Shown here: positions 9,340 to 32,513 of the stretch, piece by piece
Layout of the letters: each line of letters begins with the position of its first letter
Numbering within the stretch: position 1 is the stretch's first letter
Assembly (NCBI RefSeq): GCF_035083965.1
Contig: NC_089723.1
Coordinates: 34,165,193-34,229,192 of the forward strand
Direction of reading: 5' to 3'
Length of the DNA: 64,000 bases
From: Branchiostoma lanceolatum
Taxonomy: Eukaryota > Chordata > Leptocardii > Amphioxiformes > Branchiostomatidae
Made by a program: the position numbers and the translations under genes
The notes under the pieces: generated by a model
Told to the model about the DNA's origin: nothing
Database searches by the model: none
Seen by the model: only the letters and a program-made list of their open reading frames with translations

Positions 9340-11070
9340 CCGGTGACAAATTGTAATGCAAGATCTGGTTAACTCCTGTGATACGGCCTATTTCTACCAC
9401 TCTCCGAGCCACCTACGCAGTCTGGAATAAATCTGTCCGGATATACAGCTTGCACTGTTCAGTGAAAACCTGGTGTGTAATACAAATAAAGAATACAATA
9501 CAAAGCCGCTAGGAGGCCTAAATCGAACCTGTGGTTTGTTCGATCCCGACTCGTCGGTAGATGTTGTCGGCTGCGTCCACACCCCATATCTGGTTGCTGC
9601 TAGAGCTGACGTAAACTTCTTTTAGATCTCCTTCGATTTGCAGCCAGCTACTGCCTTGAGGCGTCTCAGCTGTCAAACCTTCAACGAGACACGGTTCATT
9701 TTGTCAATCATAGGGTATTGTCATTGGGAAACCAAGAGGACGAGTTAACTGGGGAATCCGATGTAAATCAGCAAAAGACAAGGCAGTTATTACTGTTAGC
9801 TAGTTAGTACAACAAATTGTACCAATTTGCAGCTGTTCCAGACAATGATATATATTTCCCAGATACTCTGCAAGCATGTTATGTACTCAATGCTCTGTGC
9901 TACAAATACTGTATAAAAACAAAGGGGCATACCTTGCCGTACGTAGACCATGTTATTGACGCTGACACCCCAGACCTGGCCATCTCCAGACGTGATTTGT
10001 TTCAAACCGCCGCTGACCTGTACCCATTCAGTTCCAGGTGAAGCCTCATTACCAGCCGTTCCTCTGCGGTAGTAGATCTGATCGTTGCTGTTCACGCCCC
10101 AAACACCGGCTCGTCCAACCGACACGAATTTCAGCTGCTGTCCCTCGACTTGTTGCCATTCTGTCCCTGAAGTTATAAAGATGAAAGAGCCAACAAGCGT
10201 CACGACAGTGCACAGATTTCATCGGATTTGCTACGAGATTGTATAAATCAATGACATGTTGATCAAAGTGTTATTTCACCTGCTGGATTGCTTGCGTTGA
10301 TTCCGGCTCGCCGGTAAACCAGATCCCCGGAGTTTACACCCCACACCTGATTGCTGGTTGAGCTGACATATACCTGCTTCAGGCCTCCTGCGATTTGTTG
10401 CCAGCTAGATCCTTCAGGAGAACTTGAACTCATGCCTATAGTATTAGAACATTAGACATCTATGAATCAGTGCTGTTGAGACAAAAAAAAAATAGATCAT
10501 GAGTGTGCTGTTGCTTTGGTTTGCTTTGCTTTGGAAGAGTTTGAATATATTCCCTCTTCATCAGAATTTGATAAGCACTATGCACTTTATTAGAAGACCA
10601 CGGCTTATTGACCAATGACTGACCCTCTCGGACAAGGATTTCATCGATGCTGCTGACTCCCCACACAATGTTGTTTCCGGATGAGATCTGTTTCAGGGAT
10701 CCATCGATGCCTACCCAGTCTGTGCCCGAAGAGGCCTCGTTCTGGTAAGTTCCTGTTCTGTAGTAGACCATGTCGCCACTGTTCACTCCCCAAACACCTG
10801 ATCGGCCGACCGACACGAACTTTAGCCCTCCACCAATCTGTCTCCATTCTGTAGCTGTAGAAGACATTGATCCACTGAATTATAGAAAATTGTGTATGTC
10901 CTGTCAAGCCATTAGATATAAAGGAATGTCATTCTCACATGCAGGTCAGCTAGCGTCTAAAATAATCATTATGCACGATTTGAAGGATGTTGAATTCCTA
11001 AACCAAGTGCAAAATAAGCCCTAAGTTATAAGGGGCAACTACACAACGCTGAAAGAAGGCATCACGAGTT
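9340..11070. repeat. Tectonin-cassette segmental duplication, copy B
   Basis: Exons, introns and flanks are homologous to about 12740-14910. Shared non-coding landmarks include GTGACAAATTGTAATG downstream of the last exon, GGCAGTTATTACTGTTAGC in an intron, CCTCTTCATCAGAATTTG at 10552, and CACATGCAGGTCAGC upstream of the first exon. Homology outside exons shows a recent DNA-level duplication rather than ancient exon shuffling. Confidence 0.8.
9518..10854 (-). CDS. Tectonin cassette B: four exons, six propeller repeats, stop
   Basis: Exons (minus strand): 10854-10624, 10435-10280, 10166-9933 and 9669-9518 (stop TAG 9520-9518). All internal boundaries are phase 1. They encode six repeats of about 36-44 residues with the tectonin signature (xxWxxIxGxLKxVxxG...VWGVNxxDxIYxRxG), as expected for one closed six-bladed propeller like tachylectin-1 or fish egg lectin (Hyd_WA/TECPR family). 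All VWGV cores are intact. Isoform B places the cysteine-repeat stalk immediately before this propeller. Each exon pairs one-to-one with an exon of cassette A. Confidence 0.88.

Positions 11071-32513: not shown

Follow-up and report, generated by a model that had tools for sequence, protein, structure and literature searches.

A lancelet gene predicted to place a MACPF domain and two tectonin propellers on one chain, in a family with a variable module slot

A gene on the minus strand of the window, the whole stretch of 64,000 nucleotides of Branchiostoma lanceolatum DNA analysed here, is predicted to encode one chain in which a MACPF domain and a conserved core are combined with two six-bladed tectonin propellers. 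The reading that is favoured, with modest confidence, is that of a secreted defence pore-former that would be aimed by its propellers at glycan-bearing targets. The predicted protein places on a single chain, in a chordate, the pair of domain classes known from the perivitellin-2 (PV2) of the snail Pomacea, and tectonin apparently joined the core at least two times. The gene is one of many relatives that have the same core and other binding modules, and in this family a constant pore core is set apart, by clean edges, from a recognition module that can be exchanged. With such a division it becomes possible to test in what way animals that lack adaptive immunity vary the targets of their pore-forming defence proteins.

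Gene structure and domain order

The gene comprises 28 exons that start with an ATG at 32513 and end with a stop at 9518-9520, with all introns bounded by GT-AG and with continuous phases, and the spliced reading is identical at 1818 of 1818 residues to a public B. lanceolatum protein, P0034, whose only label is 'uncharacterized protein [Branchiostoma lanceolatum]'. This exact match marks the source as B. lanceolatum, the European lancelet. By this identity, the gene ends given in a preliminary description of the DNA (9518..32513) are exact to the base, and its account of a single phase-consistent gene is upheld. The genomic reading comprises 1820 residues and P0034 stops 2 residues short of the genomic stop; the public model may contain one extra splice near its end. 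The domain order of P0034 is a signal-like peptide, MACPF, the conserved core, a cysteine-rich part, propeller A, Ephrin_rec_like repeats and propeller B (Table 1). The connection between the exons above 19.4 kb and those below 17.1 kb, on which the single gene depends, is present in the gene models: exon 13 and exon 14, which flank an intron containing a retroelement, are both matched by 28 of the first 33 homologues, and in each of these 28 the matches either adjoin or overlap.

Two alternative readings of the end of exon 22 were considered and dropped. Its donor (CAG/gttcga) was thought to be unusually weak, but its crude score of 4/7 falls within the range of 3 to 6 found for the other 26 donors. 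Likewise, the stop at 13066 was taken as a candidate end of the gene, with exons 23-28 belonging to a second gene or forming an alternative end, a reading at odds with P0034 and its relative P0040, both of which join these exons.

Table 1. Features along the predicted gene, in window positions
Feature	Position	Strand	Basis
Exon 1: start codon (32513) and signal-peptide-like stretch	32450..32513	-	equals P0034 residues 1-21
Exons 2-4: N-terminal region with basic REKR site	25131..27009 (27009-26756, 26230-26127, 25281-25131)	-	spliced reading equals P0034
Exons 5-9: region of the MACPF domain; exon 8 holds the WGTHY-x6-GG motif	21001..23859	-	Pfam MACPF, exon 8 and exon 9 pieces and P0034 321-542
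Exons 10-15: conserved core, in part a predicted jelly-roll	16470..20702 (20702-19489, 17012-16470)	-	exon map, P0008 model
Exons 16-18: furin-like part rich in cysteines, ending at the upstream slot edge	15496..16304	-	cysteine count, weak Pfam matches
Exons 19-22: six-bladed tectonin propeller A, occupying the slot	13077..14661	-	Pfam Tectonin in each exon piece
In-frame stop if the exon 22 donor is unused; possible one-propeller form	13066..13068	-	sequence
Exons 23-24: downstream slot edge and stalk of Ephrin_rec_like repeats	11902..12661	-	Pfam 2.3e-30, exon 24 piece
Exons 25-28: six-bladed tectonin propeller B and stop (9518-9520)	9518..10854	-	Pfam Tectonin in each exon piece

The MACPF signature noted in the preliminary description is borne out. 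Residues 321-542 of P0034 match the Pfam MACPF family at 1.9e-16 (61.3 bits against a curated cut-off of 21.5), and two of ten scanned exon pieces match it as well, one at 9.1e-08 (32.9 bits) and one at 4.7e-04 (20.8 bits, just below the cut-off of 21.5). A MACPF-type signature motif is present in exon 8 and, when counted in a loosened form, in 74 of the 84 proteins of the family. Matches to proteins of the PDB are weak, with the family profile reaching complement C8 alpha (E 0.0092), C9 (E 0.011) and perforin-1 (E 0.096) and exon 8 alone reaching a MACPF insecticidal protein (E 0.13), while P0002 searched alone by sequence against the PDB returned nothing credible. The structure models have mean pLDDT values of 37.0 and 49.3, the MACPF part lying mostly below 50, and the model of the homologue P0008 is confident only beyond about residue 660; it is from this homologue model that a jelly-roll is predicted within the conserved core. 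A guess that exons 13-15 form a Methyltransf_FA (FAMeT) domain was dropped, as this domain is absent from the Pfam listings and a family profile found no match among 114 non-family proteins.

The furin-like region of the preliminary description needs qualification. It contains 18 cysteines (P0034 961-1101) and a furin-like label is listed for P0003 by precomputed annotation, but the Pfam match is weak (E 0.17, in one exon) and lies below the curated cut-off in the two homologues whose scans showed it. The Ephrin-like part has 25 cysteines and matches Ephrin_rec_like in P0034 at 75.9 bits over five stretches, with 5 to 6 repeats in the corresponding DNA.

Several other elements occur within the introns and around the gene. 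Intron 13 contains a reverse transcriptase remnant on the plus strand, outside the gene product (17374..19049; RVT_1 at 3.8e-29 for 17374-18150), together with a direct repeat of 87% identity (18083-18211 and 18942-19070); a Pfam scan of 18261-19046 on the same strand of the intron gave no match. Intron 3 holds a 25-base tandem repeat of about 16 copies (25387-25777), and intron 22, directly after propeller A, holds a 44-copy ATC repeat (12811-12943). Mucin-like open frames rich in Thr and Ser lie on the plus strand to both sides of the gene (1327-1941, 35700-36828, 39185-42658 and 45139-49344). Pfam gave nothing credible for the two of these frames that were scanned, and three of the four have a single hydrophobic stretch and a basic tail near their end.

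Two propellers and the origin of tectonin in the slot

The preliminary description had proposed one complete six-bladed tectonin propeller; the tectonin assignment is confirmed by the Pfam family PF19193, but there are two propellers, with six repeats counted by eye in each and twelve blades on one chain. PF19193 matches nine of ten pieces at 1.2e-08 or better, one of the nine being a relic exon and the tenth piece being Ephrin_rec_like, and in P0034 it scores 393.1 bits over four stretches. Against the PDB, propeller exon 27 matches tectonin 2 at 2.3e-18 and fish-egg lectin at 4.9e-18. The exons of both propellers start and end in phase 1, except for the last one, which ends at the stop. Cysteine is absent from both propellers (256 and 258 residues long), thus only the backbone, and no disulfide, can link them covalently to the remaining chain. 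Together with the single spliced frame, the lack of cysteines supports the one-chain combination of MACPF and tectonin that had been proposed, unlike the PV2 of Pomacea, in which the MACPF and tachylectin-like parts form two chains joined by disulfide bonds (PMC3667788).

Propellers A and B are sisters in the tectonin tree, and their DNA is 91-95% identical across three exons, with near-equal dN (0.073) and dS (0.083), values that also fit relaxed constraint. The relic tectonin exon lies in intron 19 (14080..14379, minus strand), has stops and no usable start, and is 92% identical to 10516-10815; it is a copy of exon 25 that adjoins exon 19. Exon 19 itself looks like a chimera, with a first part that is closer to exon 25 and a later part that is closer to exons 21 and 27. 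A chimeric exon adjoined by a decayed copy of exon 25 suggests that the slot propeller was rebuilt after the decay of a blade exon.

The propellers of P0034 do not form one clade with those of two other MACPF-bearing relatives, P0040 and P0177. Forcing them together lowers the log-likelihood by 115.7 (p-AU 6.57e-38) in a test of 23 propellers, with four divergent proteins excluded, that was run after the first tree had been seen and on a group defined by architecture; P0051, which has a partial core and tectonin elsewhere, lay outside the group held together. The tectonin trees drew on 29 chosen proteins, 23 of them giving 32 propellers. The nearest kin of the P0034 propellers are lancelet peroxidase-like and F5/8 proteins, and those of the P0040 propeller are PAN/F5/8 proteins. 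Since the MACPF-borne tectonins tested are not one clade, at least two joinings or captures probably took place inside lancelets, and since tectonin apparently entered the slot at least two times, repeated capture fits better than an ancestral PV2. The suggestion in the preliminary description that the one-chain protein may be an ancestral form is therefore not supported, with the qualification that gene conversion could mislead the tectonin tree. A MACPF label occurs on 2 of the 117 matches of the tectonin search, both of them lancelet proteins. In a separate combination, seen from precomputed labels, tectonin is joined to a peroxidase family (PF03098) in P0041, P0046, P0047 and P0049, which come from lancelets and the soft coral Dendronephthya.

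A lancelet family with a variable slot

Protein searches assembled a family of 84 proteins, all of them Branchiostoma-named except P0198 from the flatworm Macrostomum lignano. These searches scored the roughly 8000 candidates sharing most words within a length window, making the counts lower bounds, and they point only weakly to an absence of the family outside lancelets. The flatworm protein, the sole non-lancelet member among the candidates scored, aligns with 99% of the query at 33% identity, and its MACPF domain is followed by 13 Ephrin_rec_like stretches.

The slot is the variable region that follows the furin-like part and precedes the Ephrin-like block, and both of its edges were placed in 55 of the 84 proteins, in which the Ephrin-like block comes after the cysteine-rich part. 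The slot is shorter than 60 residues in 27 of these proteins, carries a labelled module in 20 and holds something unlabelled in 8. The labelled modules are C-type lectin (alone or with others), tectonin, SRCR, F5/8, kringle and PAN-like. P0034 has both slot edges with tectonin between them, a label that was set by hand after its two propellers had merged in the automatic labelling. The labels derive from BLAST to a few Pfam-defined pieces, and for 19 of the 20 proteins the slot label is backed by a matching Pfam family, either from a scan or from a precomputed label, the latter being without position; the exception is P0157 (PAN), and the PAN labels of P0027, P0152 and P0194 are also BLAST-based. 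Downstream of the Ephrin-like block, 41 of the 61 proteins in which the block was placed have more labelled modules, most commonly EGF, SRCR and C-type lectin, with the caveat that these labels are looser and at least three are unconfirmed: Pfam does not confirm the kringle of P0198 or the C-type lectin of P0029, and the C-type lectin label of P0184 is absent from its precomputed labels.

The weightiest comparisons are three pairs of closely similar proteins that differ in what the slot contains. P0034 and P0151, both from B. lanceolatum, are 90.2% identical over the 1095 residues up to the slot, where the former has tectonin and the latter two C-type lectins, and they are sisters (SH-aLRT 99) in a core tree of 64 of the 84 proteins, from which short or gappy ones were excluded and in which 20 of the 64 have no slot label. 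A count of 20 slot changes on this tree was set aside, as it lacks a null and takes in an 'other' class. P0040 and P0160 share 97.5% identity upstream of the slot and 99.2% downstream of it, with tectonin in the slot of one and SRCR plus C-type lectin in that of the other, and their consecutive gene numbers and contigs of equal size suggest that they are genomic neighbours. Pairs of this type, in which nearly identical cores bear different heads, offer natural comparisons. P0153 and P0154 are annotated as isoforms X3 and X1 of a single gene, with the slot lacking a C-type lectin in the first and containing it in the second. The annotations of P0040, P0160, P0153 and P0154 come from hybrid animals, and their slot differences may stem from parental haplotypes.

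Predicted gene models underlie nearly all of the family comparisons. Errors in such models are reported to be common in multidomain proteins, where they can produce false domain architectures (PMC3927609). Lancelets are reported to have the fastest exon shuffling among metazoans, with a 1-1 phase bias (PMC4284660), the phase class of the propeller exons, and a lancelet pangenome paper mentions a MAC/perforin-like domain where it treats the domains that are enriched in dispensable genes (PMC12373286). Judged from the sequences compared here, lancelets likely re-aim one pore-forming core at many targets through exon exchange. A broader reading is more tentative and is given slightly less than an even chance, namely that lancelets hold a germ-line combinatorial arsenal in which one pore core has its recognition head swapped through exon cassettes at a single joint, both between genes and by alternative splicing. 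The gene in the window would then be the member of the arsenal whose slot and tail each hold a lectin propeller, and a chordate without antibodies would gain many differently aimed killers.

Proposed function, rival explanations and known systems

The notion in the preliminary description that the lectin directs the pore to glycan-bearing targets is plausible. The signal-like stretch of exon 1, as judged by eye, would lead to secretion of the protein, which may be cut at the basic REKR site. The propellers, and perhaps the jelly-roll, would bind surfaces, with up to twelve blades providing multivalent docking to glycans, and the MACPF part would then assemble a pore. The role of spacer would fall to the cysteine-rich and Ephrin-like parts, with the Ephrin-like repeats holding the two propellers apart. 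Across the family, exon modules of phase 1-1 would be gained, lost or exchanged between the cysteine-rich and the Ephrin-like exons, a process by which one pore core would acquire many binding heads.

The same combination of parts could also belong to an adhesive or matrix protein that makes no pores, in which MACPF is a scaffold and the modules crosslink mucus, an egg coat or an epithelial surface. Apextrin, a MACPF protein with a C-terminal binding domain, has been proposed to function in adhesion (PMC8361754), matrix proteins typically have cysteine-rich and EGF-like parts of the kind that abound in the family, and mucin-like open frames lie on both sides of the gene. This explanation, the main rival, is nonetheless considered unlikely. 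The MACPF-type motif is retained in most of the family (74 of 84 proteins), and in the gut barrier membrane of Ciona a secreted MACPF protein ranks first in abundance, with lysis as its suspected but still unproven role (PMC6109156). The idea of an egg-borne protein against predators, comparable to that of the snail, has only a very slim chance of being correct: the two domain classes are those of PV2, and the PV2 light chain was reported to be closest to a lancelet tachylectin, yet the heavy chain was reported to be closest to a mussel MACPF (PMC3667788), and the many module types of the family fit varied microbial targets better.

A different kind of doubt concerns the chain itself, which might be a join made by the gene model or a minor form, with the main product ending after propeller A or with the exons of propeller B in another transcript. 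An unused exon 22 donor would bring translation to the stop directly downstream (Table 1), the end of P0034 short of the genomic stop is a feature of the public model that is not fully explained, and multidomain proteins are those in which prediction errors are common (PMC3927609). Set against these points, the slot propeller of both P0040 and P0177 continues into the Ephrin-like block, between the same two edges as in P0034, the succession of cysteine-rich part and Ephrin-like block recurs in all 55 proteins with both edges placed, and no signal-like start was seen by eye in the roughly 400 bases before exon 23. A truncated or divided product is thus judged improbable, and the preferred reading is still that of one secreted pore-former carrying both propellers.

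P0034 is already in public databases. In a literature search of a library that lacks most subscription papers, no paper combining 'MACPF' and 'tectonin' was found, which does not imply absence from print, and neither the second propeller nor the slot was found described. Read as a one-chain pore-former with propellers, the protein has partial counterparts in several known systems. PV2 also has a MACPF part covalently combined with a tachylectin-like lectin part (PMC3667788, PMC7082926), a structure that a 2020 paper called 'unique among animals' (PMC7082926); it consists of two chains, whereas the lancelet protein has one chain, two cysteine-free propellers and cysteine-rich and Ephrin-like spacers. 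Apextrin is likewise a secreted MACPF protein with a C-terminal binding domain, from marine invertebrates, but its binding domain is ApeC (PMC8361754), which is not among the five Pfam families listed for P0034 at 0.001. Ci-MACPF1 from the gut barrier of Ciona is another large secreted MACPF protein of a non-vertebrate chordate, but has ten thrombospondin repeats and one EGF, with no lectin module described in the available portion of its source (PMC6109156). Lancelet ApeC proteins with stacked carbohydrate-recognition domains are similarly of a defence type with several sugar-binding modules, but the accessible text of that source mentions no pore-forming domain in them (PMC12373286). Fish-egg lectin and tectonin 2 share the repeats of a six-bladed propeller, with the difference that the lancelet propellers are part of a MACPF chain.
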